From the NCBI RefSeq assembly GCF_029223885.1, contig NZ_CP119409.1, positions 398,001 through 462,000 on the forward strand: DNA of 64,000 nt, given 5' to 3'. The notes under the pieces were generated by a model that worked only from the letters and a program-made list of their open reading frames with translations, did not search any database and was not told the origin of the DNA. A program made the position numbers and the translations under genes. Shown in pieces: positions 11,049 to 42,345 of this stretch. This DNA comes from Pararhizobium gei. GTDB lineage: Bacteria; Pseudomonadota; Alphaproteobacteria; Rhizobiales; Rhizobiaceae. Within the stretch, counting starts at the first letter, position 1; each line of letters starts with the position of its first letter.

Positions 11049-11138
11049 GGAGAGGTGGCAGAGTGGTCGAACGCACCGCACTCGAAATGCGGCATACCTG
11101 CAAGGGTATCGTGGGTTCAAATCCCACCCTCTCCGCCA
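11049..11138 (+). tRNA. tRNA-Ser (anticodon CGA)
   Basis: A 90-nt class II tRNA. The acceptor stem GGAGAGG pairs with CCTCTCC, the discriminator is G, and CCA is encoded. The anticodon loop reads CTCGAAA with anticodon CGA, a long variable arm follows, and the T arm contains GTGGGTTCAAATCCCAC. Its 3' end (11122-11139) is repeated exactly at 44418-44435, marking it as the integration target of the genomic island. Confidence 0.96.
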
Positions 11139-15061: not shown

Positions 15062-15078
15062 ACGGAAATAATTTCCGC
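15062..15078. repeat. Island palindrome copy 2
   Basis: ACGGAAATAATTTCCGC, with the common core at 15064-15076. It lies between the broken phosphoesterase gene and the 3' end of the convergent ASCH gene. Confidence 0.7.
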
Positions 15079-19027: not shown

Positions 19028-19031
19028 GTGT

Positions 19032-23355: not shown

Positions 23356-23903
23356 TGGAATATAAACCCCTTACAACTCCCGCCCTGGAGTCGATCCGCA
23401 AAATAAAGCAAAGCCGTACGACGCAATCAAGAGACTTGGTTCGTCGCTCAGTGCTCTCCACAATTGAACTTGTAGCGCTATGGCTTTGAAGTCACTGTGC
23501 AACAAAGAATTGAGGGAGCTATGGCCTGGGCCGTCGCAGTGCCGATATTGTGCGTGTCATCCATCTGTCGCCGATCGGGAATCTTGTCTTAAACCGGTAA
23601 GCGACACCTAATCTGAAAACGTTAGGTTCTGACTTTTGCGGTCTGGCGACTTATTCCGGCTGCCAGAGTGCTTCCTCGGCGTCGATATTGGTCATGCTTT
23701 CGCGCCTCTATCAGAAAGTCGTGGCGACTGCGCAGATTGGGCGGAATACTTTAATCCGCCCTACCCGGACCGTCTTCTAATGAAGCCGTAAGCGGAAATT
23801 ATTTCCGTTTACAAGTCGATCGGCTGCGAAATGCGTAGGCATCTTGAGTTGCATTTTCTGTTTGCTATCGATTGAATCGCCAAGCCGATTCTAGGAATGT
23901 TGC
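23356..23903. other. Divergent intergenic region, 548 bp
   Basis: Separates zorA (leftward) from the restriction cassette (rightward), so it should contain promoters for both defence operons. It contains palindrome copy 3 at 23792-23808. I saw no gene in it and no convincing -10/-35 pair. G+C is lower than in the core chromosome. Confidence 0.5.
23792..23808. repeat. Island palindrome copy 3
   Basis: GCGGAAATTATTTCCGT with the common core at 23794-23806. It lies 96 bp upstream of the restriction cassette start and 437 bp upstream of zorA, a position suited to control of the rightward operon. Confidence 0.75.
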
Positions 23904-26900: not shown

Positions 26901-26933
26901 GCAGGGTTCGCCGCGGGAGGCAGGGATGTTTGA
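23904..26933 (+). CDS. Type III restriction-like helicase-nuclease (BPTD_3080-like)
   Basis: 1009 aa. A superfamily 2 helicase with Walker A LATGAGKTTVMAM near residue 174, DEAH box VVINDEAHHCY near 311, YDLSATPFF (motif III) and the C-terminal helicase block MLTEGWDANTVTHILGVRAF and EQVIGRGLRRQ. The C-terminal end has RYLPDFII and FIVEVKGYRG (residues about 925-952), a PD-(D/E)XK nuclease pattern. This is the architecture of type III Res subunits and of the BPTD_3080 restriction family. It would translocate on and cut unmodified DNA together with the methyltransferase gene two places downstream. Start ATG 23904 has AGGA eight bases upstream. First gene of a six-gene cassette. Confidence 0.88.
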   Translation: MTKPFYAEPILNSPYDVPTRHHALSESGEPLNHPPIDGRRRSKYVAPVPKSRKVKVDPRKQASLDLDQTKDGSSRYNPTPIINEVRGHIASWRSLPNPSDWGVTPSTQRLLQHWRGDNFSGPRPFYCQVEAVETAIWLAEVARKSKQYSRIFSHLEGANQDANPEIFRLALKLATGAGKTTVMAMLIAWQSINAARQPNSSLFSRGFLIVAPGITIKDRLRVLKPSDGNSYYRSRELVPQDMMADLNKAKIEIVNYHVFQRRKAHELNAVGLRLMKGWKGEQIEELETEGAMLQRACGDLLTMKNIVVINDEAHHCYRERPGTHEEDDLKGEEKEEAKENNEAARLWISGIEALKRKVGVRAVYDLSATPFFLRGSGYEEGTLFPWVVSDFSLVDAIECGIVKLPRVPVSDNSVNSDMPVFRNLWDHIGKKMPKKGAGKSGDLDPLSLPNELQTALYSLYSHYEKEFEAWKQAGIGVPPVFIVVCNNTASSKLVYEWVSGWEREVEGERQNKHQGHLELFRNYDRHGNRLPRMNTLLIDSQQLESGEALDSNFRDIAKAEIEQFKREKAERDGAAEANSVTESELLREVMNTVGQKGRLGEQVRCVVSVSMLTEGWDANTVTHILGVRAFGTQLLCEQVIGRGLRRQSYELNDRKLFNTEYADILGIPFDFATEPQTVVHTTPKPTTRVHALKERANLSIRFPRVAGYRAELPSDRFSASFGPDSVLTLTPELVGPCTVRLEGLVGEGHDLSPDSLDDMRASTVAIHLTKFLIQRYFRDGDQDPSYMLYNQIQPITRRWVNECLKLTGGTKAGMLTYAEIAETASELIYQAIVRSAEEEGESVVKAMLDPYNPHGYTDHVSFITSKQTLWETRLSHVNYVVCDSDWEAEFARVVENHKATISYVKNQALGFEVPYRSGSITRRYLPDFIIQVDDGRGQGDPLNFIVEVKGYRGLDEQIKAETMANLWVPGVNNLKSYGRWAFKEFRDAFAMEDEYERLIAGFAAGGRDV

Positions 26934-28794
26934 CAGTACGAAGCAGAGTTTGAAAACACTGCTTGAGCAGGTTCGTGACGGGCGAATCCAGTTACCTGAG
27001 TTTCAGCGCGACTATGTCTGGTCCGAAGAGGCTGTCATCAGTCTGCTGGCCAGCATTTCCAAAGGCTATCCCGTAGGTGCTTTGCTAACGCTGGAGCGTG
27101 GCGGCGAGGTTGATTTCAAACCGCGAGGTGTCGAGGGCGCAACATTCGGGAGCGTTGTTCCGGAGTCGCTGCTCCTTGATGGCCAACAGAGGATGACGTC
27201 GCTGTTTCAGTCGCTGATCGCAAGTGAACCAGCCAAACTGAAAGATGAGAAGGGCAAGCCAGTCCAAAGGTATTTCTACCTAGATATGAACGCTGTCTTG
27301 AGCCCTGAGTCTGATTTCGAAGAATCGATCATCACGATTGGACCAGAGAAAATAAAGTATACGGCCTTTGGCAAAGATGTCGAAATTGATCTCAGAACGC
27401 GTGAGGACGAAATCAGACTTTGCCTCTTTCCATTGAATCAGACCTTCGATGATCGCCGATGGTCATTCGATTACCAAAACTATTGGAAGGGACTGGAGAA
27501 ACCGGAGCCAGCCGATTACCAGCAGTTTTATAATTCGGTGATCGAAAAGATCGTGCGCTATGAGATGCCGATCATACGATTGACCAAGGACAATGGCAGA
27601 CATGCGGTCTGCACCATCTTCGAGAAAGTCAACGTTGGTGGCGTCAAGCTCGATGCTTTCGAGTTGCTAACCGCGATTTTCGCTGGAACTGATGATGGAT
27701 ACGATTTGCGGGCAGACTGGCGCGGTGCGCCCGGAAAACCCGGTAGACTGACCCGGATGTGTGAACACACGCCTGCATCAGGTGTGTTTACCAAGATCGC
27801 TAGTACCGATTTTCTCCAAGCTTGTACGATCCTTCATACCATGGATCGTAAAGCGCAACGGGAAAGTGAGGGGCAGACCTCTCAGGTCAGCTGCAAGCGT
27901 GATGAGCTGCTTGCCTTGCCACTCTCCGCTTACCTGAAATACGCGGATACGCTAGAGTACGGTTACCGCCAGGCAGCGCAGTTCCTTGCCGGTCAGGGAA
28001 TTCTCTACGGTAATGACCTCCCCTATCCGCCGCAGGTCACGGTACTGGCCTGCGTGTATGGCCTTTTGCGCGAAAAGGCGCAAAACGCCGCCGTGGTCGA
28101 GAAACTGGAGAAGTGGTTTTGGCGCGTTATTCTGGGCGAGTTTTATAGCAGTTCCGTCGAAAGCAAGATCGCGAGAGACGTTCCGGAAATCGTCGGGTGG
28201 ACGGTGAACGGCTCGCCGCCCCCTCGATCATTCGAGGAGGCTGGCTTCGACAGTTCACGACTGTATTATTTCCGCCGACGTCAGGCTGCACCGTATCGCG
28301 GCTATCATGCACTGCTCATGAAGAGTGGTTGCCGCGATTTCGTCAACGGCAAGCCCTTTGAACTCATGACACTGTGGCAAAGCCCGATCGATGTGCACCA
28401 CATCTTCCCGCAGTCTTGGTGCAAGAAAAATCAGATCGATGCAGGGCGTATGGATTCAATTATAAACAAGACGCCTTTGTCAGATTTGACCAATCGCGTC
28501 ATCGTCAGAGGCGACGCCCCCTCGGTTTATCTCAAGAGGATCGAGTCTGAGTACAATATATCCAGCGACCAGCTCGATGAAATTCTCCGTACACATTTGA
28601 TCGAACCGCAGCATTTGCGAAACGATGATTTCGAGGCATTTTATCTTAACAGAAGGGACGCACTCGCCAAACTTGCTGGCAAGGCGACGGGGCGAGATAT
28701 TACAGTCGCGCCGACTGAAGAGGTTTCCTTCGCGGAAGACGATGAGATCGAGCTTCCCGAGGATATTGAACGCATCCCAGCAGTAGCAGAGTAA
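26926..28794 (+). CDS. DUF262 / HNH (GmrSD-like) protein
   Basis: 622 aa from ATG 26926, overlapping the previous gene by 8 bp. The N-terminal DUF262 (ParB/GmrS-like) domain has RIQLPEFQRDYVW near residue 20-32 and LLLDGQQRMTSLF near 83. The C-terminal region near 490 has VDVHHIFPQSW-type residues (DVHHIFPQSWC) followed by TPLSDLTNRVI, the DUF1524-like His-Asn-His nuclease pattern. GmrSD-type enzymes cut glucosylated or other modified phage DNA using NTP. Lying between the Res-like and methyltransferase genes, it may add a second activity against modified DNA. Most of the gene is less G+C-rich than its flanks. Confidence 0.82.
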   Translation: MFDSTKQSLKTLLEQVRDGRIQLPEFQRDYVWSEEAVISLLASISKGYPVGALLTLERGGEVDFKPRGVEGATFGSVVPESLLLDGQQRMTSLFQSLIASEPAKLKDEKGKPVQRYFYLDMNAVLSPESDFEESIITIGPEKIKYTAFGKDVEIDLRTREDEIRLCLFPLNQTFDDRRWSFDYQNYWKGLEKPEPADYQQFYNSVIEKIVRYEMPIIRLTKDNGRHAVCTIFEKVNVGGVKLDAFELLTAIFAGTDDGYDLRADWRGAPGKPGRLTRMCEHTPASGVFTKIASTDFLQACTILHTMDRKAQRESEGQTSQVSCKRDELLALPLSAYLKYADTLEYGYRQAAQFLAGQGILYGNDLPYPPQVTVLACVYGLLREKAQNAAVVEKLEKWFWRVILGEFYSSSVESKIARDVPEIVGWTVNGSPPPRSFEEAGFDSSRLYYFRRRQAAPYRGYHALLMKSGCRDFVNGKPFELMTLWQSPIDVHHIFPQSWCKKNQIDAGRMDSIINKTPLSDLTNRVIVRGDAPSVYLKRIESEYNISSDQLDEILRTHLIEPQHLRNDDFEAFYLNRRDALAKLAGKATGRDITVAPTEEVSFAEDDEIELPEDIERIPAVAE

Positions 28795-28796
28795 AC

Positions 28797-31772
28797 ATGG
28801 CCAAGACCCCGCGCGAAAAAGATGTCTCCACGCTCACCCATGACAAGGCGGTTCGGCTAAACAATCCGACGGCCGAGATGGCGTCGCTTTATGAGCAGCA
28901 GGAGGAGATGCTCGGCGGTGGGGCGCGCGAGATGCGGATTCCGAGGGATCGGCCGTTGGCGGAAGGCGAGGAACGCGACAGGGATATGGATCGCGACCCG
29001 CAGATCGTCTGGAATGGCGCGAAGATCAGGATTACTCCGTCGCAGATGCGGCAACTGGCCGAAACCGGAGAGATCGAGATCGGCGACGCCCAGCTTGTCT
29101 GGCGAGGCAAGGACCGGCAGGACTGGTCCGACCTCGTGGTCAATGCGCCGCCGCTCTATATTCAGGAAAAGGTGCATCCCAAGGCGATCATCGACGACCT
29201 GAAGCGCAAGACCAACAAGGCGCGCGAGGCGGCCAGCGACGCGCCTGATCTTTTTGCCGATTTCAATGGCATCGCCGATCCCGAGGCACGAGCGGAATTC
29301 TATCAGCATACGAAACACTGGCAGAACCGCTTCATTCTGGGCGATAGCCTGCAGGTGATGGCGAGCCTTGCCGAGCGCGAGGAGATGCGCGGCAAGGTGC
29401 AGTGCATCTATTTCGACCCACCCTATGGCATTAAGTTCAATTCGAACTGGCAGGTTTCGACCATGAGCCGGGACGTGAAGGACAAGAAAGAGGATACTTC
29501 TCGCGAACCAGAGCAGGTGAAGGCTTTCCGCGATACTTGGAAGGACGGTATCCACTCGTACCTCACCTATCTGCGCGACCGGTTGATGGTGGCGCGGGAA
29601 CTGCTGACGGAAAGCGGCTCGATTTTCTTGCAGATAGGCGATGAAAATGTTCATCGTGTCAGGGCGTTAATGGATGAGGTGTTTGGGGAGGAAAACCACG
29701 TCAGTCTAATCAGTGTTCAAAAGACCTACGGCTTCTCTGCTGATGCAATCTCCAATGTTGTTGACTACATCATTTGGTATGCGAAGCGAAAACCACTGGC
29801 CAAGATAAGGCACCTTTATCGGGAAAAGCCCTACATCTTGGGTGAAGGGAATGCGACTTGGCTTCAATTGGATGAAAACTCTTATCGAGGAGTTTCTTCT
29901 AAAGAAAAGGATGGCGCTTCTCTGCCGCCCGGCGCGCGTCCATATAACCCGGACAATCTGATATCGCAGGGACGTGCGTCAGAAAGACAGCCTTTTGAAT
30001 ATAAAGGTGTCAAGGATGATCCATGGCCTCGAAATTCACATTGGAAGCCAAACTATCCGATTGGTTTAAACCGCCTCGTGAGAGCGAACCGCGTGCATGT
30101 CGCGGCCAACAGCTTTAGATATAAGCGCTTTCATACCGATTTTGCGGTGCTGCCATACTCCAATATTTGGACTGATACGGGTACCGGCAATTTCACAGAT
30201 GAAAAAGTGTACGTTGTTCAGACAGGCTCCAAAACTGTCGAACGATGCATGCTCATGACTACTGATCCCGGCGACCTAGTTCTTGACCCAACATGCGGTT
30301 CCGGTACGACCGCTTTCGTTGCGGAACAATGGGGACGCCGCTGGATCACCATTGATACGTCGAGGGTAGCGCTCGCCCTTGCACGTACACGCCTGATGAG
30401 CGCTCGTTATCCCTACTATCTGCTTGCAGACTCTCGCGAGGGACGAGGCAAGGAGCAAGAGCTTTCCGGGAAGATTGGCTCAGCCTCAGCTCCCTCTGGG
30501 GACATCCGTCAAGGATTCGTCTACGATCGCGCCGCGAGAATTATGCTCGGTGCCATTGCCAACAATTCGCAGATTGATGACATTTGGGACAAATGGCAGG
30601 ATGTACTGGAGCCCTTACGCCGCCGACTTAACGAGAGCTTCTCCACCGCCCTTGAGGAATGGGCAATCCCCCGCGATCTCGACGCCTGGCTCGACAGCAA
30701 GGATGGACAGGCCAAGGTGCATCTGGTGACCGATGCGGTGCGCAAGCTCCACGCCGACTGGTGGGAAGCCCGCATTGCCCGCCAGAAGGAGATTGACGCC
30801 TCGATCGCCCGTGCTGCCGACGTCGAATTGCTCTATGACCGTCCCTACGAGGACAAGAGCAAGGTGCGCGTCGCCGGCCCCTTCACCGTCGAGAGCCTGT
30901 CGCCGCATCGCGTTGTCGCCGCGCGCGAGGATACGCTGGGCGGCGAGCTTGCCGCATCCGGCGCGATCACCGCCAATGCCTCCACACCAGCCAATATGCC
31001 GGAAGCCGATTTCGGCGAGATGGTGATTGCGCATCTGAAGAGCGCTGGCGTTCACCAGCAGGCCAAGGCAGATACCATCCATTTCAACTCCATCGAACCC
31101 TGGCCTGGCGTCTTCATCGCCGCCGAGGGGCGCTACACGGATGGCGGGCAGACGGAAAAGCGCGCGGCAATCCTGATCGGTCCGGAATTTGGCACGCTGA
31201 CCCGCAGCCAGATCACCGCCGCGGCGGGTGAGGCCTCCGACGCCCGCTTCGACGTGCTGATCGCCTGCGCCTTCAACTTCGACGCCCAGGCAACCGACCT
31301 CAACCGCCTCGGCCCGCTCGCTATCCTGAAGGCACGCATGAACCCCGACCTGCATATGGCCGAGGACCTGAAGAATACCGGCAAGGGCAATCTCTTCGTT
31401 GTATTCGGTGAGCCGGACGTCGAAATCCTCGATGCCGAGGGCGGCGAGATCAGGGTGAAGGTCCACGGCGTCGATGTCTTTGACCCCTCCACGGGCGACA
31501 TCCGTTCCGACGACGTCAAGGGTATCGCCGCCTGGTTCATTGACACCGACTACGACGATGAAAGCTTCTTCGTCCGCCACGCCTATTTCCTCGGGGCCAA
31601 CGATCCGTACAAATCGCTGAAGACGGCGCTGAAGGCCGAGATCGACGCGGATGCTTGGGAGACACTCTATTCCGACACCTCACGGCCATTCCCTCGTCCG
31701 AGCACGGGGCGGATCGCGGTGAAGGTAATCAACCACTTCGGCGACGAGGTGCTGAAGGTGTTTGGGGTTTAA
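28797..31772 (+). CDS. Site-specific DNA adenine methyltransferase (type III Mod-like)
   Basis: 991 aa, starting 2 bp after the DUF262 gene. A beta-class N6-adenine or N4-cytosine methyltransferase: motif IV CIYFDPPYGIKF near residue 205, followed by the target recognition region, then motif I LDPTCGSGTTAFVAE near 496. DPPY before the SAM-binding motif gives the beta order, as in type III Mod subunits. An N-terminal 180-residue extension and a C-terminal domain of about 430 residues are longer than in typical Mod. Expected role: protect host DNA from the Res-like enzyme. Bases about 29640-30600 (the target recognition part) are visibly lower in G+C than both ends, suggesting exchange of specificity. 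Confidence 0.9.
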   Translation: MAKTPREKDVSTLTHDKAVRLNNPTAEMASLYEQQEEMLGGGAREMRIPRDRPLAEGEERDRDMDRDPQIVWNGAKIRITPSQMRQLAETGEIEIGDAQLVWRGKDRQDWSDLVVNAPPLYIQEKVHPKAIIDDLKRKTNKAREAASDAPDLFADFNGIADPEARAEFYQHTKHWQNRFILGDSLQVMASLAEREEMRGKVQCIYFDPPYGIKFNSNWQVSTMSRDVKDKKEDTSREPEQVKAFRDTWKDGIHSYLTYLRDRLMVARELLTESGSIFLQIGDENVHRVRALMDEVFGEENHVSLISVQKTYGFSADAISNVVDYIIWYAKRKPLAKIRHLYREKPYILGEGNATWLQLDENSYRGVSSKEKDGASLPPGARPYNPDNLISQGRASERQPFEYKGVKDDPWPRNSHWKPNYPIGLNRLVRANRVHVAANSFRYKRFHTDFAVLPYSNIWTDTGTGNFTDEKVYVVQTGSKTVERCMLMTTDPGDLVLDPTCGSGTTAFVAEQWGRRWITIDTSRVALALARTRLMSARYPYYLLADSREGRGKEQELSGKIGSASAPSGDIRQGFVYDRAARIMLGAIANNSQIDDIWDKWQDVLEPLRRRLNESFSTALEEWAIPRDLDAWLDSKDGQAKVHLVTDAVRKLHADWWEARIARQKEIDASIARAADVELLYDRPYEDKSKVRVAGPFTVESLSPHRVVAAREDTLGGELAASGAITANASTPANMPEADFGEMVIAHLKSAGVHQQAKADTIHFNSIEPWPGVFIAAEGRYTDGGQTEKRAAILIGPEFGTLTRSQITAAAGEASDARFDVLIACAFNFDAQATDLNRLGPLAILKARMNPDLHMAEDLKNTGKGNLFVVFGEPDVEILDAEGGEIRVKVHGVDVFDPSTGDIRSDDVKGIAAWFIDTDYDDESFFVRHAYFLGANDPYKSLKTALKAEIDADAWETLYSDTSRPFPRPSTGRIAVKVINHFGDEVLKVFGV

Positions 31773-31775
31773 TTC

Positions 31776-32594
31776 ATGCCGATGGACCCGGAGAAAAAGC
31801 GCCCCGTCGAAAAGAACGAGTTCGTCCGTATCGACATCACCGTCGAACCTCGTGTGGGCGGCAAAACTGGGGCCTTTTCCGCTGCGAAACATCGTTACTA
31901 CACCCCGATGGGGCTTGCAGGGAACGCAAGGCAAGAGCGTATCGCGCCCTTGCTGGAGACGGTTGCCAGATTTTCTGAGCAAACCGGTGAGAACTTTCCC
32001 TATGCGTTCACCGATCGGCAAGGAAAAAACTGGTCGATCGACGCAGGCTGCCTGAATGCTATCGGTCCCCACCATCTGGGGCTGGTGGATTTCGTGGAGG
32101 AGGATGGGTACATCATCGCGGTCACGCCGACGTCAGCGTTGGTAAGCCGAGAAAGCACCAGCAGTCCGAAAGCTGCTGATATCGAGCAGTTACAAGAAGA
32201 CTCGAGTCTCGGGATCACGGAGCGCAAGCGGCTGATAGACGCCCGTCTCGGACAAGGTCGTTTTCGAAGGGACGTCCTCGCGTGCTGGAACGGGCGATGT
32301 GCAGTCACATCATGCGCGTTGCCAGCCGTTCTTCGGGCCTCCCACATCGTTCCATGGCGCGATGCAGACAATGCCGAGAGATTAGCCCCGGAAAACGGGT
32401 TGCCGCTTGTTGCAACTCTCGATGCGCTGTTTGACGCGGGTTTGATCTCGTTTGACAACAGCGGGCGGATGCTTCGCAGTCCCGGCTTGAGTGAGCATCC
32501 TGATCTCGTGCAGCCAGGCTTGAAACTTTCCAGGCCGCCCACTTCGAAGATGCAAGCCTATCTTGATCGGCATCGCCGGCACCACGGATTCTGA
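31776..32594 (+). CDS. HNH endonuclease-like protein
   Basis: 272 aa, starting 3 bp after the methyltransferase stop. The C-terminal third has an HNH_2-type nuclease pattern: CAVTSCALPAVLRASHIVPW near residues 174-193, then DNAERLAPENGLPLVATLDALFDAG. The N-terminal 110 residues (FVRIDITVEPRVGGKTGAFS, RYYTPMGLAGNARQE) are not recognised but may bind DNA. HNH proteins of this sort accompany restriction modules. It is the fourth gene of the cassette. Confidence 0.8.
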   Translation: MPMDPEKKRPVEKNEFVRIDITVEPRVGGKTGAFSAAKHRYYTPMGLAGNARQERIAPLLETVARFSEQTGENFPYAFTDRQGKNWSIDAGCLNAIGPHHLGLVDFVEEDGYIIAVTPTSALVSRESTSSPKAADIEQLQEDSSLGITERKRLIDARLGQGRFRRDVLACWNGRCAVTSCALPAVLRASHIVPWRDADNAERLAPENGLPLVATLDALFDAGLISFDNSGRMLRSPGLSEHPDLVQPGLKLSRPPTSKMQAYLDRHRRHHGF

Positions 32595-32641
32595 CGCAGC
32601 TACGCACTGGAATACCGCAACATGTCATGGTTCGAACAGCA

Positions 32642-33472
32642 ATGAGCAATGCGCCCTATAACGGTTACTCCTGGCAGCAGCGTGCACGCATCATACCCGC
32701 TTATCGCAAGCTCACGGGCAGGCAATCGCCGTTCATGGCAGGCGAGCCATGCGCGATGTGCGGCGATCCTGACCGCCCGCCGGGCGAATGGCATTCCGAG
32801 GATTATTCCGAGCCATTCAGCTTCGCGCCGCCGCAATCTTTTCCGCTCTGCAAGCCCTGTCACGCAAGGCTACACAAGCGCTTCAACGCTCCGCAAGGTG
32901 AGTGGCAACTCTTCTGCCACCACCTGGATGCGGGTGGCTACGGGGCGGAGTTCGTCAAGCTTCGCAGTCTCGACGAACGACGGGCGCTTTGCGAGAAGAT
33001 CACTTCCGGTGTACCAGTTGTGTTTCCGATGCTTCGGCCGAAAGGCCCCGGGCCTCATTGGTGGCAGACCCTGACGCTCGATCCGGAGTCGCTCGTCGCG
33101 CCCTGGGCACGGCCTCGGCCGTTGCGTCCCCGCCCAGATCGGGAAGCGTTTCTTCGGGCGTTTCAGGCGGTTGACCTGTCCGAGCGAGAGCTGGCCCTGC
33201 TTCGCGCCCATGCCGCCGCCCCACGTCGCACGGCCACGATGCGAAGCCTTGCACACAACGCCCTTGCAAGCGACAGCTACCAGGCTGCCAACAGCACCTA
33301 TGGGGGACTAGCGCGACGGCTGACGTCCCTGCTCGACTGGAAGCCCGATATCCGGGAGGACAAATCACCCTTCTGGATGAGCCTTCTGGCGGAGGGTTGG
33401 ACGCCTCCCGGACGAGAATTCGAACTGACGATGGTGCCATCAGCGGCGGAGGCAGTAGGAGAGCTACGATGA
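32642..33472 (+). CDS. Zinc-binding HNH-like protein
   Basis: 276 aa from ATG 32642; ATG 32627 in frame would add five residues, and neither has a clear ribosome site. Cysteine pairs in GEPCAMCGDPDRP and SFPLCKPCHARLHKRF frame a short segment with a His-rich, HNH-like zinc fold in the first 100 residues. The remainder is Pro/Arg-rich with a helical C-terminus (RSLAHNALASDSYQAAN). Probably DNA-binding or nucleolytic, but the catalytic pattern is incomplete, so this is inference. Its stop overlaps the next start (ATGA). Confidence 0.7.
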   Translation: MSNAPYNGYSWQQRARIIPAYRKLTGRQSPFMAGEPCAMCGDPDRPPGEWHSEDYSEPFSFAPPQSFPLCKPCHARLHKRFNAPQGEWQLFCHHLDAGGYGAEFVKLRSLDERRALCEKITSGVPVVFPMLRPKGPGPHWWQTLTLDPESLVAPWARPRPLRPRPDREAFLRAFQAVDLSERELALLRAHAAAPRRTATMRSLAHNALASDSYQAANSTYGGLARRLTSLLDWKPDIREDKSPFWMSLLAEGWTPPGREFELTMVPSAAEAVGELR

Positions 33473-35565
33473 CCACTATTCTCGCCGACAGCTTCACTGC
33501 CGCCCTTGCAAAGCTCACCAATGACGAGCAGAAGCAGGTCAAACTGACAGCGTTCGATCTGCAGACCGACCCCGATCGCCCGGGCCTCCAGTTTCATCGG
33601 ATCGACGCGTCAAAGGACCCGAATTTCTGGTCGGTTCGCGTCAATCGGGATATCCGGATCATCATTCACAAGTCGGGCAACAGCGTCATGCTCGCTTATG
33701 TGGATCACCACGACGATGCCTATAAATGGGCAGAGCGGCGACGCATCGAGGCCCATCCTCGTACCGGCGCGCTGCAGATTGTCGAAGTCCGCGAGCGGGT
33801 CGAAGAAATCGCGCTGAGAACCGAACCACCTCGTCAGGCCGATCTTCCGTTCGTCGTTGCCACAGCACCCGCTGTTTCCGATCTACCCTTGTTCGCACGT
33901 TTGACGTCAGACGAGGCGCTGTCGATCGGCGTCCCTGTCGACTGGATCGGCGACGTGCTCGCCGCGAACGAAGAACGCTTCTTCACCCTGACAAACCATC
34001 TTCCGCAGGAGGCGGCGGAAGCGCTGCTCGAATACGCGGCAACCGGCGTCCTGTCGAAGCCCGCACCGATCGATGCCACGCCGGTCAGCCATCCGGATGC
34101 CCAGCGCCGCTTCCGCATTCTGGATGGCCACGAGGAGTTGGCAGCAGCATTGGACCAGCCGTTCGAGAAATGGGCGGTCTTTCTGCATCCCTCTCAGCGG
34201 GCGCTCGTCGAAAAGGATTTCAACGGTCCTGTACGCGTGATTGGTTCAGCCGGTACAGGTAAGACTATTGTGGCACTTCATCGTGTCACCCGTATCCTGC
34301 GGGGCGATCCGGAAGCGCGGGTCCTGCTGACAACTTTCTCGGAGCCTCTTGCCTCGGCACTCAAGCGCAAACTCGGTGTTCTCTTCGCCGACGAGCCTAC
34401 GCTTGGCGAACGTGTCGTGGTCGCATCGTTCGAACAGGCCGCGTCGGAGCTTTATGCGCTGATGACGGGCCGGAAGGCCTACCTCATCGGCCGTGACAAC
34501 CTGAGGGCAATGCTGCGCGACGTGGCCGAGGATGCGAACCTGAAGCGTTATACGCCGCAGTTCCTCCTCTCCGAGTGGGAGCACGTCATCGACGCCTGGC
34601 AGATCGACAGCGCCGATGCCTACGCGGTAGTGCCGCGAATGGGGCGAAAAAATCGCTTGGGCGCAAATCAGCGTGAAGAGCTTTGGTCCATCTTCGACAA
34701 TGTGAGAAAACAAGTGCGGGCCAAGGCGATGATGACCGAGGCCGATCTGTTTACCGTCGTCACAGGACATTTTTCAGCGAAAGACCAGAAGCCATACACG
34801 CACGTTGTCGTCGATGAAGCGCAGGACCTGGGTGTCGCAGAGTTGCGCTTTCTTCAGGCAATCGCTCCTCCGCACGCGGATGCGCTTTTCTTCGCCGGGG
34901 ACATCGGCCAGCGAATCTTCCAACAGCCGTTTTCGTGGAAAGGTCTCGGTATCGATGTCCGCGGCCGCTCCTTCACCCTGAAGGTCAATTATCGGACGTC
35001 GCACCAGATACGCCGCATGGCCGACTTGCTCTTGCCAGCAAGCGTGCGGGATGTTGATGGAGAGGAAGATGATCGCAAAGGAACGGTTTCGGTTTTTGAG
35101 GGACTAGACCCCGTAGTTGTCATTGCCCCGACTGAGGAAGAGGAAATAATTTCCGCTTCTGCATTCCTTCAGACGCTGCTCGACGATGGCTTGCGGCCCT
35201 CCGAAATTGGAATCTTCTGCCGCTCCAACGCAGAGATTGCGCGAGTGGCCGAAGTTGCAAAGTTGGCCGGCATACCTACCGCATCTTCCTCTCAAGGCAC
35301 GAGCGCCTCCGATGGTGTTTTGATCGGAACGATGCACCTTGCCAAAGGGCTTGAGTTCCGAGCGGTCATTATCGTTGCATGCGATGAAGGGGTATTGCCA
35401 TTAAGCAGTCGCGTTGCAGACGTCGCCGACGAATTCGAATTGGATGAAGTGGTCGCAACCGAACGTCAGCTACTGTACGTAGCCGCAACACGTGCCCGAG
35501 ATCATCTTTTCATCTCGGCCGTTTCTCCAGGTTCGGAGTTTCTGGAAGACCTGATACGCAAATAG
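33469..35565 (+). CDS. UvrD/Rep-like helicase with RelE-like N-terminus
   Basis: 698 aa from ATG 33469. Residues 1-100 resemble a RelE/ParE-fold domain (KLTNDEQKQVKLTAFDL, LQFHRIDASKDPNFWSVRVN, DIRIIIHK). A superfamily 1 helicase follows: Walker A VIGSAGTGKTIVALHR near 257, VVVDEAQD near 447, NYRTSHQIRRM, GTMHLAKGLEFRAV and the terminal VATERQLLYVAATRARDHLF. Helicases of this layout recur in defence gene clusters. It is the last gene of the cassette; palindrome copy 4 lies inside its coding sequence. The toxin-like domain probably serves as a nucleic-acid-binding module, since no antitoxin gene is adjacent. Confidence 0.85.
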   Translation: MTTILADSFTAALAKLTNDEQKQVKLTAFDLQTDPDRPGLQFHRIDASKDPNFWSVRVNRDIRIIIHKSGNSVMLAYVDHHDDAYKWAERRRIEAHPRTGALQIVEVRERVEEIALRTEPPRQADLPFVVATAPAVSDLPLFARLTSDEALSIGVPVDWIGDVLAANEERFFTLTNHLPQEAAEALLEYAATGVLSKPAPIDATPVSHPDAQRRFRILDGHEELAAALDQPFEKWAVFLHPSQRALVEKDFNGPVRVIGSAGTGKTIVALHRVTRILRGDPEARVLLTTFSEPLASALKRKLGVLFADEPTLGERVVVASFEQAASELYALMTGRKAYLIGRDNLRAMLRDVAEDANLKRYTPQFLLSEWEHVIDAWQIDSADAYAVVPRMGRKNRLGANQREELWSIFDNVRKQVRAKAMMTEADLFTVVTGHFSAKDQKPYTHVVVDEAQDLGVAELRFLQAIAPPHADALFFAGDIGQRIFQQPFSWKGLGIDVRGRSFTLKVNYRTSHQIRRMADLLLPASVRDVDGEEDDRKGTVSVFEGLDPVVVIAPTEEEEIISASAFLQTLLDDGLRPSEIGIFCRSNAEIARVAEVAKLAGIPTASSSQGTSASDGVLIGTMHLAKGLEFRAVIIVACDEGVLPLSSRVADVADEFELDEVVATERQLLYVAATRARDHLFISAVSPGSEFLEDLIRK
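35140..35156. repeat. Island palindrome copy 4 (inside the UvrD-like gene)
   Basis: GAGGAAATAATTTCCGC with the common core at 35142-35154. It encodes EEIIS within the helicase, so both the protein and the palindrome constrain these bases. Confidence 0.7.
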
Positions 35566-35751: not shown

Positions 35752-36078
35752 TCAGTCTTCAGTTCCGAGTGTCAGATGGCGCTTCGGGCGAAACGGAAAG
35801 AGGCCATCCGAATACCGGTCAGCGAGTTCGTGAAAGACTTGCTCGCTCTGACGAACGTCGAACTTTTGGCGCTCAAGCTGTTCGACCAAGGCGTCGCGAA
35901 CCTTACCGAGCGCACGGTAGGGGTCCTTATGGCTTTGGGCAGCCGTAATCATCTGCCAGAGCAACATCCTCGCCAGATCGTCCCGGCTCGGACGTCTGAG
36001 AACTTTGGCCTCGTCGCGAACCTTCTGCTGGCGCTCCGCCTGCTCTGCATTCCGTTGCTTCTTCGACTTCCTCGCCAT
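35752..36078 (-). CDS. Small basic hypothetical protein
   Basis: 108 aa from ATG 36078, with AAAGGAG eight bases upstream. The N-terminus is Lys/Arg/Gln-rich (MARKSKKQRNAEQAERQQK) and predicted helical; the rest includes LARMLLWQMITAAQSHKDPY and VFHELADRYSDGLFPFRP. No membrane helix. Family unknown. Convergent to the restriction cassette and 450 bp beyond the M41-type gene on the same strand; it may be expressed alone. Confidence 0.65.
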   Translation of the reverse strand: MARKSKKQRNAEQAERQQKVRDEAKVLRRPSRDDLARMLLWQMITAAQSHKDPYRALGKVRDALVEQLERQKFDVRQSEQVFHELADRYSDGLFPFRPKRHLTLGTED

Positions 36079-36529: not shown

Positions 36530-37285
36530 TCAGGGCGGCGCGTTGGAAGGTTGGATAACATCCATCGGTCGCCCGACGAGCTGCCGCACCTCATCACCGG
36601 ACATAACGCCGACATCGTCCAACTGGGCAGCGACGTCCTCCACTGCGCGGCGGTTCTCGTCGATGATCCGGCGAGCGATTGCCTCAGCGTTCTCGAGACG
36701 TCGGTTGACGCGCTCGGCCAGTTGCCGATCGAGTGCCAGCTCGTTGGTCCCCATGGTCGCCGACCTATACAGCAAGGGCTGATGACCGGAGAAACCAAGA
36801 CTGGTCTCTGCGGCCAAGGCCATCGCCGTCGCACGCGCCAGATCACTTTCGTCAGCGCCGCCGCCGCCAGCCAGTGCTTCCCCGATGACCGTCAGTTCAG
36901 CGGCGCGGCCGGCGAGAAGACAAGCCACGCTATTCATCAACCAGGTTTCGTTCTGCGGTAGTGATGCATTCGGCGTCGTCGTTACCATTCCGATCCCATG
37001 CAGGCCAATGCTGGCGGATTGCACTGCGGCGACACCGGTCACTGTATAGACCACTGCATGTCCCGCTTCGTGGACGGCAGCGCGTCGCCGAAGATCGGCC
37101 GACATATCCGCCTGCCCTGCTAGCAAGGCGTTTTCCAAATCGGCCCAACTTACAGCCCGACCCGACCGTCGCGCTGTCCTGCGGACCTTACGCACCATAC
37201 GCTCGACGTCGGCTCCTGTCTTTCCGAGCGCCAGCAATGCCAAGGGGAGAAGCGTGTTCTCTGCATTCATCTCGGATGTGTTCAC
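36530..37285 (-). CDS. M41 (FtsH-type) zinc metalloprotease as a separate protein
   Basis: 251 aa from GTG 37285, which overlaps the ATPase stop by 4 bp (GTGA). It matches the C-terminal protease domain of FtsH without the ATPase: zinc motif AAVHEAGHAVVY with HEAGH at 72-76, a third ligand Asp near 148 in GADESDLARATAMA, and helical ends. No membrane helix. FtsH normally carries AAA+ and M41 in one chain; here they are two coupled genes, so the ATPase next door probably feeds this protease. Chromosomal ftsH is not in the window, so this is not a broken housekeeping copy that can be seen here. Confidence 0.85.
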   Translation of the reverse strand: MNTSEMNAENTLLPLALLALGKTGADVERMVRKVRRTARRSGRAVSWADLENALLAGQADMSADLRRRAAVHEAGHAVVYTVTGVAAVQSASIGLHGIGMVTTTPNASLPQNETWLMNSVACLLAGRAAELTVIGEALAGGGGADESDLARATAMALAAETSLGFSGHQPLLYRSATMGTNELALDRQLAERVNRRLENAEAIARRIIDENRRAVEDVAAQLDDVGVMSGDEVRQLVGRPMDVIQPSNAPP

Positions 37286-39237
37286 GGCTTAACTCCTTTC
37301 GCCTTGTCAGCTTTGCGTTTCTCTGAGGTCCGTCGCAGCTGCCCTGGAACATGGTCCCTTGCCTTCGGAGGCTTTAGGCGATGCCGCGACGACGCACTTG
37401 GGGCGGACGACATGACGTCGGCCAGGTCGGTGCCGAGATGATGGCCCAGAATCCCGACCAACGTCCCGAGGTCGGGCAGCGGAATGCGGACATGGGTTTC
37501 CAGCCGTCCCGACCGCAAAAGGGCCGGATCGATCTTCTCAGGCAGGTTCGTCGCGGCGACCACGACAACGCCTTCGGTCTTCGTCGCACCGTCGAGAAGC
37601 TGGAGGAGCCTGTTGATCAGCGACGTCCAGTAGTCGTCGTACGGTCGGCCACCGCCGGTCTGGCGCGATCCGATATTGTCGAGCTCATCGATAAAAAGGA
37701 TTGCGGGCGCTTTCGATGACGCCAGCTCGAACGCCGCGGACATGCGCTTGAGAACGTCGCCGAGATACCCGGGCTCGAGCCAGTGCGCAACAGAGGTCAC
37801 CAAAAGCGGCACTTGAAGCGTGTTGCAGAGCGCCTTGGCATATGTCGTCTTGCCCGTGCCTGGCGGACCTGACAGCAGCAGTTTTGTGCTCATCTCATTC
37901 CAAGATAATTTGGCGTCCCGCCACAGATCGAGGTCGGTCTTGAGGTCAGTGGCCCACTCGCGGGCTTCACCGTAGCCTGACAGCGTCTCGACCGAAGGCA
38001 CAGACGTCTGCTTTTGCGGCTCGGATGTCCTTGCCAGTTTGCGATCACCAGTGAGCACCGGTTCAATGATTTCGATGCCGACGTCTTGCGAACCTGTTTT
38101 GTCGTCCCGCTTCTGCGATGGAGCCGCCCCGGCTCGACTGCCACCAGAGCCGCGCCGGCCGCCGCCCTCACCACCTACCGTCTTCTCGGAGCCATCGTCC
38201 GCGGCGAAGCGATCGGCCAGCATTACCAGAACATTGAGGACTTCTTCGGCCGAACGGCGCGGCCGGACGGCAAGAACCAGGTCGTCGAGCGACAGAGAAC
38301 TCGGATCGAATCCCATCGCATTCATCAACGCCAAACTTTCCTCAAGCGGCGTGCCGATGCAAACGTGAAGAACGTCGGCGAGCATGTCTCGATCAAGCCT
38401 TCCACATTCAACCACGAGATCGACCGTCTCGGTGACGACTGGTGTCAGAGCGAGTGGAGTTTCATCAGCCACGACAATCGGCGCAGGATCGCTGAGCATG
38501 GCCTGGCGAAGTTGCCGACGGACCGTCTTGTCGTCAGCCTTGGCGACCGCGGAGCCGGCCAAGGTTTTAATTGCCCGCTGCGGACGTGGCCTTCGGTTGT
38601 CCGGATAACGACCAGACAGTGGGCCATCCCGCATGACGTCTTCCAGCACCGCTCTGGAAGGCGTCAGTAGTCCGTCTTCGAGCATCATACCGAGGCCTGC
38701 CTCGAAACGCTGGACCGGAGCCTTGATCAACACGAACGGCGTTGTCGTCTGCAGCACCCCAGTCAGTACGCAAAGGTCTGGCAGGCTGGTTCCGATTGCT
38801 CGGGCGACGAGAAGGGCGACGGCGACGTGCAATGGATTGGGCGCAGGTAGACTCTCCCTGAGCAAAACGGAGACGTAGGAGAAGTCGACGCTTGAACTGT
38901 TGGTTCCGCCACTCGTCAACGTGGAAGTTTTACGTCCCTTTGTCGGTTTGGCGATAGCTGGATCGCTCCAATCGAACGTGCTTTCCACCTCGCGACGTGC
39001 TTCGCCAAACCCCATCAACCGGCGGACAATTTCCTGGTCACGAAGACGGGCGCCGGCCAGGAATCGGCTTGCCGCAGGAGAGACATTCCAGACTGTCCCG
39101 GAGATGTCATCATCACCCATAAAGCGGCCGTCAAGTAGTCCGGCAACCGCGGCACGCTCGTAAAGATCGACGACAGCGCGACGGCGCAGCCGCGCAAGCA
39201 GATACCGACGGATGCGGTGTTCCAGAGTTTCCATCAT
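37282..39237 (-). CDS. AAA+ ATPase (FtsH/Cdc48-like) paired with M41 protease
   Basis: 651 aa from ATG 39237, overlapping the preceding stop (ATGA). Residues 1-400 form an unrecognised domain with no membrane helix (RRYLLARLRRRAVVDLYE, GTPLEESLALMNAMGFDPSS). A Gly/Arg/Ser-rich linker lies near 375-395. The AAA+ domain has Walker A GPPGTGKTTYAKAL near 450, Walker B ILFIDELDNIG near 511, and the second region of homology with VVAATNLPEKIDPALLRSGR (Arg fingers). The C-terminal 45 residues are basic. FtsH-like in the motor but lacking both transmembrane segment and protease, which is supplied by the next gene. Expected to unfold a substrate for that protease. Confidence 0.87.
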   Translation of the reverse strand: MMETLEHRIRRYLLARLRRRAVVDLYERAAVAGLLDGRFMGDDDISGTVWNVSPAASRFLAGARLRDQEIVRRLMGFGEARREVESTFDWSDPAIAKPTKGRKTSTLTSGGTNSSSVDFSYVSVLLRESLPAPNPLHVAVALLVARAIGTSLPDLCVLTGVLQTTTPFVLIKAPVQRFEAGLGMMLEDGLLTPSRAVLEDVMRDGPLSGRYPDNRRPRPQRAIKTLAGSAVAKADDKTVRRQLRQAMLSDPAPIVVADETPLALTPVVTETVDLVVECGRLDRDMLADVLHVCIGTPLEESLALMNAMGFDPSSLSLDDLVLAVRPRRSAEEVLNVLVMLADRFAADDGSEKTVGGEGGGRRGSGGSRAGAAPSQKRDDKTGSQDVGIEIIEPVLTGDRKLARTSEPQKQTSVPSVETLSGYGEAREWATDLKTDLDLWRDAKLSWNEMSTKLLLSGPPGTGKTTYAKALCNTLQVPLLVTSVAHWLEPGYLGDVLKRMSAAFELASSKAPAILFIDELDNIGSRQTGGGRPYDDYWTSLINRLLQLLDGATKTEGVVVVAATNLPEKIDPALLRSGRLETHVRIPLPDLGTLVGILGHHLGTDLADVMSSAPSASSRHRLKPPKARDHVPGQLRRTSEKRKADKAKGVKP

Positions 39238-39554
39238 GCGTCCTCCCGTGCCTCCGTGAAGGCAGGATTGCCATCGAGCCAGTCGCGGACGACAAGACAT
39301 GTCGGGTCACCAAGTGTGCAGAGTTCAAGCAGCCAGGCCCGTAGCTGCGGCGGCAGGCTTTCGAGTCGCCGCCCCTTTCGACGCGCGAAGCCGATTGCCG
39401 GCCGGAGGATGGACGCGACGTAGTCGGCGCGCTCCTCGGCTGTCAGTTTATCCAGTGCCGCGCGGCAGATCGTACCGCCTTCGGCCCTATCGATGAGCCG
39501 CACTGGCTCGGGCTGTGAAGGGAATTTCAGAATGTTGGAAAGTGTTGACGTCAT
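39234..39554 (-). CDS. 106-aa protein of the AAA+/M41 cassette
   Basis: 106 aa from ATG 39554. Not recognised. Sequence is mainly helical: AALDKLTAEERADYVASILR, FARRKGRRLESLPPQLRAWL, and CTLGDPTCLVVRDWLDG at the end. The two cysteines sit seven residues apart. The stop overlaps the ATPase start and 78 bp separate it from the gene before, so it belongs to the same operon. Could be an adaptor or regulator of the ATPase; that is inference from position. Confidence 0.75.
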   Translation of the reverse strand: MTSTLSNILKFPSQPEPVRLIDRAEGGTICRAALDKLTAEERADYVASILRPAIGFARRKGRRLESLPPQLRAWLLELCTLGDPTCLVVRDWLDGNPAFTEAREDA

Positions 39555-39632
39555 GGCAGTCGTCTCCCGATGCCCTGCTGCTGACAGCGGGCGTTGGTGT
39601 TCAGGGATGGAGATGAGGAGATCGTAGGACGA

Positions 39633-40514
39633 TCAGGCACCGACCGTGCGCGGCGACCGTGCAAACCCGATCGACACCGGGACACGGACGGCAGGTGCAG
39701 CCGCCAAGCTGAGGGGAGATGCCGACGTCTCATGATCGGCCGGCGCATTGCCGGGAGAAATCGGCGCATTCCCGATGCCCGAACGGTGACCATCCAAAGC
39801 GGCCGCCCAATTCGCCTCGACTTGAACCCGGAAAACCTCTCGAAGATGCTCCATAAGTCGACCGGCGCCCGTAATTTCCAGAAGGTGGTCGAGGTGACTT
39901 AACGGCCAGACACCGGCCTCGATATCCGTGCGCTGGTTCTCGGCGTTGAGGATGACCACGCGCACTTCCTCGACATGAAGACGCCGGTATTCCTTGAACA
40001 GAAGGTCGGGAACGACCAGTGCCGCTGCCAGCATCCTTTGCTTCAGCTCAGCGATCCGCGAAACTTCATAGGAGCCGAGGCTGCGCTTGACGTCGACGAG
40101 ATGCGCGACCTTCGTCAGGCGATTGAGAATGAGCAGGTCGGGCGTGTAGCTCTTGCGCCCACCATTGTCTGCGTCGAGGCTGAGCGACTTGACCAGCGAC
40201 GGATCGTTCATCGCGACCAGCTCCGACGCCGCTTTGGTGACCGGCAGGCGAAGGTTGTCCGTGAGGACAACAAGGTCGGGATTGCGTTTGGCAACAAGGC
40301 CGATGCCGCGCTCGAGTAGACGTCCTTCCGCGATAGGGACGACGCGCAGGACGGATGTGATTTCGTTCATGCCGGCCGTGAGCGCTTTTCGAAGCAGGTC
40401 GGTTGAAAGCGCCGACGATACGATCTCGGCTACGAGCGTGTCGATCTGCGACCGCATTACATCGAGGTCAACGATATGGGCGTAACTGGTGGTGTCTTCA
40501 TTCCTGGTAGTCAT
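39633..40514 (-). CDS. PD-(D/E)XK-nuclease-like protein of the AAA+/M41 cassette
   Basis: 293 aa from ATG 40514, with AGGAG eight bases upstream; the open frame to 40895 is leader. The central part carries a pattern like a PD-(D/E)XK nuclease core: SYTPDLLILNRL with PD at 125-126, then HLVDVKRS with Asp 141 and Lys 143, spaced about as in the fold, followed by a helix (YEVSRIAELKQRMLAAAL). The C-terminal 60 residues are Pro/Ala-rich. I do not recognise a family. As first gene of the cassette it may be the effector or the recognition subunit. A perfect 21-bp palindrome lies 67 bp upstream. Confidence 0.7.
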   Translation of the reverse strand: MTTRNEDTTSYAHIVDLDVMRSQIDTLVAEIVSSALSTDLLRKALTAGMNEITSVLRVVPIAEGRLLERGIGLVAKRNPDLVVLTDNLRLPVTKAASELVAMNDPSLVKSLSLDADNGGRKSYTPDLLILNRLTKVAHLVDVKRSLGSYEVSRIAELKQRMLAAALVVPDLLFKEYRRLHVEEVRVVILNAENQRTDIEAGVWPLSHLDHLLEITGAGRLMEHLREVFRVQVEANWAAALDGHRSGIGNAPISPGNAPADHETSASPLSLAAAPAVRVPVSIGFARSPRTVGA

Positions 40515-40580: not shown

Positions 40581-40601
40581 ATGCGGAAATGATTTCCGCA
40601 T
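40581..40601. repeat. Island palindrome copy 5 (21 bp, perfect)
   Basis: The 17-bp centre GCGGAAATGATTTCCGC at 40583-40599 extends by two more paired bases on each side. It is 67 bp upstream of the nuclease-like gene start, the position expected of an operator over its promoter. Confidence 0.8.
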
Positions 40602-40987: not shown

Positions 40988-42097
40988 TCAGGCGGCCAGC
41001 TTCTTGTACTGGCGCTTCGACGGTCGGGGGGCGAACAGAACCTGCGCCCTGATCTCGTCGCGGTTATCGGGGGAGACGATCTGGAGAGCACCCTCAATCG
41101 TGTCCTGCACCGCCGGCGGCATGTGACCGTAGGTCAGCAACCCGTCATCAGCCTCGTCCTCGCTCTGCACGGCGACGTCAGCCTGGCTCTGGTCTTCTGC
41201 GTCGGCCGGGAGAGCCTCGCCGTGGACGACGAAGCGCAGAAGGGGAACGACCTCGTTCTGGAGCCAAGGTACGAAGTCTTCGCGCGCCGGCCATGTCTCC
41301 TTGCTGCCCATCTTGTAAAGCAGGGCCTGGACCTTCCGCCATGCCGAGTCTTTCGGCAGTTTGGACGGCCGCCAGTTGACCCCGGCAATCATCGATGGCT
41401 CGAGGGGAGCAGCGATGCTGTTGATGAGATCATGTGCATGCCTGCAATCGTTAACGATCAGGTCTTGCAGTGATTTCTTTATAACCGCGCGATTTTTGGC
41501 CAGCGGCTGCATGGCCGTGTTGACCCGCTGCAGGATAGCGGTCGTCAGCTGGAAGAACTTGACCGAGTCCTGCTCGATCTTGATTTCGGCCATCCTGCGC
41601 AGGCCTGCCGCACCGCCGATCTCGGGTGGGTTCTCTTCCGCTTCCTTATTGGGCGGCGTCGCACCGACCATGGTTTTCACTTGGGCGACCGTCAGGTTCT
41701 CGCCAGCCTCGAATGCCGCCAGGACATCTTCGACCTTTTCGGAGTCCGCATAGGCGAGGACGAAGAGCGTCGTCGATGCGATACCGGCCGCGACCAGACG
41801 CTCCTTGTACTCGGCGAGGTTCTCATGGATGGCGATGTGGTTGCGGGCCGTCTTCGTGCTGAACTTGCAGATCGCCTTGACCCAAGCGCCAAGAGCGCGC
41901 TCGGGCAGAATAGCTTTTGCGCGTGCGAGGTAGCCGCCGAGCTCGAACCCCTGCTCGGTCGTCCGCCGACCGAGCGAACGGATGCCCTCGCCGATGGTCT
42001 TCAGCTCGCCGACGTCCTCCGGCGAGACCTCGTCGGCCGCCTTCACCGCCTTGGCGGCCAGCAGGCCCGAAATCTTCTTTTGCGTGTATGCTGTCAT
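40988..42097 (-). CDS. DUF3102-like protein
   Basis: 369 aa from ATG 42097 (MTAYTQKKISG), downstream of AAGGAG; ATG 42121 and 42193 are in-frame alternatives. Residues 35-130 match the DUF3102 pattern: RRTTEQGFELGGYLARAKAI, LGAWVKAICKFSTKTARNH and FVLAYADSEKV, predicted all-helical. DUF3102 proteins occur on plasmids and integrated elements and may bind DNA. The C-terminal half (KFFQLTTAILQRVNTAMQPL, KKSLQDLIVNDCRHAHDLIN) is helical and unrecognised. It has its own terminator. Upstream lies a strikingly A+T-rich 150-bp stretch. Confidence 0.75.
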   Translation of the reverse strand: MTAYTQKKISGLLAAKAVKAADEVSPEDVGELKTIGEGIRSLGRRTTEQGFELGGYLARAKAILPERALGAWVKAICKFSTKTARNHIAIHENLAEYKERLVAAGIASTTLFVLAYADSEKVEDVLAAFEAGENLTVAQVKTMVGATPPNKEAEENPPEIGGAAGLRRMAEIKIEQDSVKFFQLTTAILQRVNTAMQPLAKNRAVIKKSLQDLIVNDCRHAHDLINSIAAPLEPSMIAGVNWRPSKLPKDSAWRKVQALLYKMGSKETWPAREDFVPWLQNEVVPLLRFVVHGEALPADAEDQSQADVAVQSEDEADDGLLTYGHMPPAVQDTIEGALQIVSPDNRDEIRAQVLFAPRPSKRQYKKLAA

Positions 42098-42345
42098 GTC
42101 TTCAGTGTCTCCTTGTTTCATCCGGTCTTCATCAGCGACCGTGAGATAATGATGACACGAATTTCCAAAAGGCGTTACAACCGAACTCATCAAGTATATG
42201 AAAATAAACCGAAAAATGAGGTTTTCGCGAATTTTCGTCGAGATTTATCCAATGATTCCAACAGGCGAAATTTCTCGAAAATTTTTTTGCATCCCAATTC
42301 TGAATGCATCAATAAATTGTATTGTGTTTTCGCGGCTCGGCGATT

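Follow-up and report, generated by a model that had tools for sequence, protein, structure and literature searches.

A rhizobial gene cassette encodes an AAA-M41 protease on two polypeptides beside a PD-(D/E)XK-like protein

Analysis of a 64,000-nucleotide (nt) stretch of the Pararhizobium gei genome (GCF_029223885.1, NZ_CP119409.1, positions 398,001-462,000 of the forward strand; hereafter the window, whose positions are used for its features) uncovered a six-gene cassette, U-A-B-C-D-E, on the minus strand from 42193 to 35752. Its core comprises gene A (39633-40514; 293 amino acids, aa), nuclease-like of the PD-(D/E)XK type by motif columns, structure model and fold matches; gene B (39234-39554; 106 aa), a conserved small protein of no known family; gene C (37282-39237; 651 aa), an FtsH/Cdc48-type AAA+ protein; and gene D (36530-37285; 251 aa), which carries the remainder of the AAA lid followed by an M41 zinc protease. 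An ATGA overlap joins B and C (39234-39237), and in a GTGA overlap the stop of C meets the start of D (37282-37285). These four open reading frames (ORFs), their strand and their 4-nt overlaps lie where the original prediction, made from the letters of the window, had put them. That prediction is partly supported overall, having missed a split within the AAA lid, fused relatives of the protease, an associated palindrome, and the two genes that extend the core into a larger conserved unit: gene U (40988-42193; 401 aa as the longest frame), with a predicted ParB/Noc-type domain, and gene E (35752-36078; 108 aa), another conserved small protein of no known family in profile searches and the locus survey. 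Best supported is the structural statement that a fixed cassette combines a PD-(D/E)XK-like protein with a natural AAA-M41 protease encoded as two polypeptides.

Proteins were compared with the Pfam, NCBIfam and PADLOC (2023) profile libraries, the Pfam scan covering nine window proteins. C contains an AAA domain at residues 453-587 (Pfam, E-value 1.3e-32) and D a Peptidase_M41 domain at residues 61-236 (Pfam, E-value 1.2e-14), while the NCBIfam FtsH model TIGR01241 is divided between them, positions 198-344 being matched by C and 356-597 by D. A profile of 17 D proteins aligns unbroken to the FtsH chains 3kds and 2ce7 (positions 211-456), beginning in the lid helices ('GADxExLV...') and running to the C-terminus. 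The similarity of C to FtsH-like and Cdc48-like proteins ends at about residue 601-611, read as the first lid helix. The first ~60 residues of D are AAA-lid helices, and therefore the split falls inside the AAA module; with C ending after the first lid helix and D starting in the lid, the ATPase core and most of the lid reside on two polypeptides. The layout of C is an unassigned N-terminal region of ~400 aa, the AAA+ core, the first lid helix and a ~45-aa tail, and that of D the rest of the lid (residues ~12-60) and then the protease. The Walker A, Walker B and arginine-finger regions are conserved in C, and in D residues H72, E73, G75 and H76 of the HEAGH motif (72-76) and S147-D148-L149 are invariant across 17 rows; from the FtsH alignment and general knowledge of the family, we take D148 to be the third zinc ligand. 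Hydropathy revealed no membrane helix (top 19-residue Kyte-Doolittle mean 1.71 for C and 1.47 for D). The profile matches and hydropathy agree with the earlier proposal of a two-subunit AAA/M41 machine free of membrane helices. For D, the HEAGH motif and third-ligand Asp it named hold, but its description as having no ATPase part does not, as D carries AAA-lid helices.

To our knowledge, AAA+ M41 proteases are single-chain machines. The C-D pair has in common with FtsH, m-AAA and i-AAA proteases the AAA core, arginine-finger region, lid, and HEXXH zinc site with its third-ligand Asp. It differs from FtsH in being divided within the lid into two ORFs where FtsH has AAA and protease on one chain, in lacking the N-terminal membrane helices, in having another N-terminal part, and in its fixed partner genes. 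We rejected programmed frameshifting as the main means of joining C and D: an overlapping start and a Shine-Dalgarno-like site (AAAGGAG, 37293-37299, minus strand) belong to D itself, and five loci (L091, L093, L096, L105 and L106) carry a gene of one family between C and D; that of L106, the one tested, is DUF6634 (Pfam). In a tree of D with 103 rows (86 split, 15 fused, 2 outgroup), the state must have changed between split and fused four times or more, and well-supported branches force two of these changes. The outermost position in this tree is taken by four single-chain rows, where long branches meet and the root is unsure. P0121 and P0122 are Rhizobiales proteins that have AAA and M41 on one chain and no evident membrane helix, and P0121 is encoded in the window's own genome, away from the three A-B-C-D copies found there; P0121 shares 47% identity with the C core over 204 aa, and the kinship to D is 33% over 180 aa. 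The C-D pair is closer to such single-chain proteins without membrane helices than to membrane FtsH, although these relatives are one chain. Since they occur in the same genome, solubility alone is not new.

M41 genes without most or all of the lid were observed at two further loci (L240, 8778-10966, minus strand; L244, 10104-13223, plus strand). They adjoin a different AAA+-like gene, a weak profile match that appears Lon-like by eye, and a gene that appears phosphoesterase-like by eye. At these loci, AAA and M41 are kept on separate genes in another manner.

The PD-(D/E)XK motif of A comprises E63/E68, P125-D126 and D141-x-K143; D126, D141 and K143 are invariant and P125 nearly so in a 20-row alignment. 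Pfam returned a sub-threshold VRR_NUC match only (E-value 0.044). Structure models were predicted for A and U, and the top fold matches of the A model (predicted local distance difference test, pLDDT, 75.8; predicted template modelling score, pTM, 0.72) are mostly PD-(D/E)XK-class nucleases with weak scores, McrBC entries among them. A PD-(D/E)XK fold is therefore predicted for A on weak-scoring fold matches, and together with the invariant residues these bear out the nuclease-like first protein that had been anticipated; unrelatedness to nucleases was not seen. For U, the model suggests a ParB/Noc-type helical (helix-turn-helix) DNA-binding domain at residues ~57-182; no ParBc (N-terminal CTPase) match was found at E <= 0.1, and the N-terminal part of the model is helical or disordered. 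B had no match in Pfam or in the other profile searches, and gene E showed a weak PADLOC match to a type I specificity protein (E-value 0.00019). No curated PADLOC model of the 2023 library spans the cassette proteins: at E <= 0.1, A, B, D and U were unmatched and C was matched over the AAA core only.

Conservation of the gene set was assessed in 63 loci (the window, two paralogues from its own genome and 60 loci fetched through A) and in 80 named loci likewise found through A, the genomes of the two samples being partly shared. C and D are both present in 54 of the 63 loci, split in 42 and fused in 12, and B accompanies them in 53 of these 54. Nine loci are without C or D, of which five are cut by a contig end (L054, L061, L075, L100 and L104) and two lie near one (L090 and L102). 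B, C and D occur together in 73 of the 80 named loci and the other seven run off contig ends, so the genes stay together in other genomes. Of these 73, 67 are split, with the 4-nt stop/start overlap retained in 48, and six are fused; B is present in 73/73, U in 65, E in 67, and both U and E in 62. The window's genome itself holds three copies, the further two being L020 (7188-13746) and L021 (6476-10957), the latter having lost B together with the adjoining end of A and start of C.

In order to survey distribution, 297 genomes of the window's family were searched separately with A and with D, a strong D match being one at E <= 1e-25. A was found in 56 genomes and strong D in 59; both occur in 44, A only in 12 and D only in 15 (odds ratio 55). 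None of four same-genus relatives carries A. Beyond the family, A was matched in 6/397 genomes of the order (four in the window's family and two weak matches outside it) and in 2/385 of the class (the window's own genome and one at E 4e-4), with few candidates scored per genome, so that absence outside the family is not firm. By title, the named records are mostly Rhizobiaceae, plus Aurantimonadaceae and one Devosia bin. Among the genomes searched, the cassette hardly occurs outside Rhizobiaceae. On plasmids, A and D match an identical set of 11 among 72,556 records; of six opened, two carry repABC within ~1.5 kb of A, two have rep genes within ~9 kb of the cassette, and two show no rep genes in view.

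D loci were fetched from all 15 D-only genomes, giving 20 stretches, supplemented by others from G143, G162 and G248. Among these are contig ends, single-chain variants, C-D pairs accompanied by DUF6634-type genes, a B-C-F-D set in which no A is recognisable, and M41 genes beside a different AAA+-like gene; one of them, L238, holds a weak A match missed by the family search. Conversely, some A-only genomes hold fused forms below the D cut-off (L095 of G249, L103 of G125).

The cassette lies in an island that had been proposed to be a defence island, a view supported by the systems encoded there. Besides a tRNA-Ser (11049-11138) and an integrase-like gene (11230-13149; sub-threshold DUF6538 match only) there are a complete type I Zorya system (zorD, zorC, zorB and zorA; 15923-23355, minus strand), with best PADLOC E-values of 0, 4.4e-188, 5.8e-121 and 6.3e-300, respectively, and a type III-like restriction cluster identified with PADLOC and Pfam (23904-33472, plus strand). 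The latter contains, all on the plus strand, a GmrSD_N protein (26899-28794), a type III-like methyltransferase (28797-31772) and an HNH gene (31776-32594). A UvrD-like gene and hipBA are found around the cassette. No second tRNA-Ser 3' end was found in the window at up to 3 mismatches or in the genome at up to 1.

To survey cassette neighbourhoods, we compared 134 of 151 chosen neighbour ORFs at 20 cassette loci with 131 of 289 at 20 control regions, which lie ~200 kb off on the same contigs, unmatched for accessory DNA. At E <= 1e-20 the 134 neighbour proteins hit 117 PADLOC families, a figure that is not a protein count since families overlap on single proteins, and the 131 control proteins hit 2 (mad3, in four proteins, and one nicking endonuclease). 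Among the matches listed, neighbour families include type I, IIG and IV restriction, Lamassu, BrxA, PifA and a Druantia-type methylase. Cassette neighbourhoods are thus defence-rich relative to the controls, which adds to the support for the original prediction. A cluster of serine-recombinase ORFs is present in 15/63 loci and an integrase-like one (by eye) in 12/63; a recombinase of the same look in L020 is Recombinase/Resolvase (Pfam).

A 17-bp palindrome, GCGGAAATNATTTCCGC, recurs across the island. It is perfect ~70 bp upstream of the start of A (40583-40599) and at 11284-11300, where it overlaps the predicted start of the integrase-like gene, and has one mismatch in a convergent intergenic space (15062-15078), between the divergent zorA and restriction operon (23792-23808), and within the UvrD-like gene (35140-35156). 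With up to one mismatch, the 4.75-Mb genome contains ten sites. The window island has five of them and each other cassette copy two, so that nine are no more than 30 kb from one of the three copies; the tenth is at C1:3176694. Eight further genomes with the cassette gave 50 sites, of which 45 are on the same contig as, and at most 100 kb from, a cassette or a strong M41 match, and 20 paired loci hold 27 sites (at most 2 mismatches) in 367 kb, with 0 in 380 kb of controls. A de novo scan for repeated palindromes was positive in 28/69 and 35/80 loci vs 3/20 controls, or in 23 and 31 loci and 0 controls once N runs and GC-rich or unrelated pairs had been removed by eye, and revealed variants such as GCGGCAATNATTGCCGC.

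The palindrome stands upstream of A in 41/143 loci and, as in the window, overlaps the predicted start of an integrase-like gene in L151 (686), L159 (533) and L263 (9829), these genes being 46-47% identical to the window's. Overall, 55 of 106 sites fall in predicted ORFs, against 86% of random positions, and 20 of 106 in convergent spaces. In G204, sites beyond the cassette lie among genes that appear metabolic by eye, and the four same-genus genomes without A contain 11 sites, three of them perfect. A simple promoter role is disfavoured by the sites in ORFs, the G204 sites, the same-genus sites without A and the failure to track U. Binding by U is put forward as a hypothesis only: all six loci of at least 15 kb without U have the site and 17/52 with U have none, so that within loci there is no tracking, and the trend runs in the wrong direction (Fisher p 0.17). 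A role as terminator or insertion site, considered for some sites 5-28 bp from stops in convergent spaces, was not retained: flanks beyond the 17 bp are unshared between the sites of one locus (by eye), so that a mobile-unit boundary at the palindrome found no support.

The remaining site, at C1:3176694, lies ~150 bp upstream of the longest gajA frame and ~6.6 kb from another AAA-M41 gene. The Gabija operon there (L254, 7694-12179; GajA E-value 1.7e-276, GajB 2.3e-253) has in its vicinity an AAA-M41 gene of the single-chain kind, as well as a DUF6634-type match. In addition, palindrome-like sites occur inside hipA in the window (43267), L021 (5313), L152 (6988) and L262 (1168); the site-bearing genes are 74-77% identical to the window's, and the recurrence possibly reflects only a conserved peptide.

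Several known systems resemble parts of the cassette. McrBC is an AAA+ ring with a PD-(D/E)XK partner, its AAA domain belonging to a clade other than that of C; McrBC entries appear among the weak fold matches of A, but the cassette adds a protease subunit. IetAS pairs an AAA+ ATPase with a separate protease gene, IetS being a subtilisin-like serine protease. C matches the IetA model (PADLOC IetA; NCBIfam IteA) over the AAA core only, at 72 bits, whereas the cassette partner is not a serine protease but a zinc protease of the M41 family that also bears a portion of the ATPase. FtsH-ternary systems (Kaur et al. 2020, PMC7159879) place an FtsH-type AAA+ protein in a proposed bacterial conflict system and are built on MoxR and vWA proteins, neither of which was matched among the nine window proteins scanned. 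Open PubMed Central (PMC) literature, with subscription literature outside the search, yielded no recognisable description of the cassette or of a lid-split M41 protease among the matches listed, and no mention of DUF6634/PF20339 under those names.

Taking as a starting point the computed gene set, split point, A motif, folds predicted for A and for the U domain, catalytic-residue conservation and defence-rich setting, we infer the assembly, activities, trigger and target of the cassette as follows. C and D would assemble into a single soluble AAA+ protease ring of the FtsH type, with the lid of the AAA module made complete in trans, and neither alone would be a working ATP-driven protease. 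A would be a PD-(D/E)XK nuclease subunit and B a small adaptor, and U, as a ParB-type protein, would probably bind element DNA, perhaps at the cassette-linked palindrome. The ring would then probably be the switch: when the cell is invaded or a replicon is under stress, it would unfold or degrade U, B or an incoming protein, and this would free or feed nuclease A, resulting in DNA cutting. A role in defence or element control that relies on a protease of two subunits is thus the most likely one, and the full reading, in which Rhizobiaceae carry a mobile conflict cassette of six genes for defence or element protection, is about as likely true as not. It draws on the fixed gene set, the agreement of the A and D searches in genomes and plasmids, the evidence for separate chains, and the defence-rich setting, including Zorya and the TIR/short-pAgo and type IIG genes beside distant A relatives. 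The conflict role is drawn from association, and it is by inference that the ring gates A or removes U. Several findings weigh against this view. Strong D occurs without A in 15 of 59 genomes and A without strong D in 12 of 56; L108 is without D and L109 without B, C and D, neither at a contig end; A matches none of 50,697 phage records; and cassettes beside repABC on plasmids fit maintenance as well as defence. Because the control regions were unmatched for accessory DNA, the enrichment of their counterparts indicates an island and not a defence function. Finally, an identical in-frame stop interrupts C in L020 and L021, two of the genome's three copies; this, with the losses of L021, makes the latter look like a later, shortened duplicate of the L020 copy. 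Defence and element control are hard to separate, and the cassette may serve both together.

A regulation or maintenance switch is unlikely yet deserves serious attention. Here U would be a KorB/Noc-like repressor that controls island genes from the palindrome, and C-D would remove it on a signal, setting expression, excision or copy number, with A acting in transfer or exclusion. A signal-triggered protease that removes a repressor acts in the manner of ImmA/ImmR. The ParB-type domain predicted in U fits this, as do the concentration of the palindrome at cassettes (nine of ten genome sites) with one site ahead of a Gabija operon, the sites upstream of A and at integrase-like gene starts, and the cassettes next to repABC; yet sites do not follow U locally, about half fall in predicted ORFs and 20 in convergent spaces, and those of G204 are among metabolic-looking genes. 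General proteostasis, in which a soluble quality-control protease merely sits in variable regions, is improbable: its conserved AAA and M41 active sites and the single-chain relatives without membrane helices in the same genome would suit such a role, but A is patchy (56/297 family genomes, 0/4 same-genus relatives), and the cassette is multi-copy, plasmid-borne, set in islands and equipped with fixed partner genes. Decay of a single-chain protease into functionless pieces is very improbable, as 86 of the 101 distinct D rows, spread widely over the tree, are split, catalytic residues are invariant in 17 rows, and 48 of 67 split named loci keep the 4-nt overlapping start, even though single-chain relatives exist and the genome has two further copies with a stop in C, one of them truncated. 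Neither a lack of co-occurrence nor a non-nuclease first protein with a housekeeping protease pair, either of which would have told against the original prediction, is what we found.

A broader version of the conflict-cassette reading, doubtful as a whole, is that the split AAA+ protease, with a ring that would stay incomplete until both gene products meet in the lid, is a rhizobial island-conflict switch in which a ParB-type protein would read the island-wide palindrome and the protease would gate the nuclease, the cassette heading a modular family with M41 apart from at least two AAA+ motor types. The second motor type is suggested because the M41 genes of L240 and L244 adjoin another AAA+-like gene. 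A stable, widespread cut in the lid would show that an AAA-M41 module can assemble from two gene products; lid function could then be tested cleanly, and the arrangement might provide on/off control from within. Should the cassette act on phages or plasmids, it would be a zinc-protease-based addition to the defence of nitrogen-fixing and plant-associated bacteria. The cassette-concentrated palindrome offers a practical way of learning what the system senses or regulates.

Distant relatives of A in two other families of the order (L126 and L127) also stand beside AAA+ and DUF6634 genes, the DUF6634 match in L127 being below the cut-off, and L126 contains a metallophosphoesterase as well. A TIR/short-pAgo pair lies near the distant A of L126 (302-9575), and a type IIG gene near that of L127.

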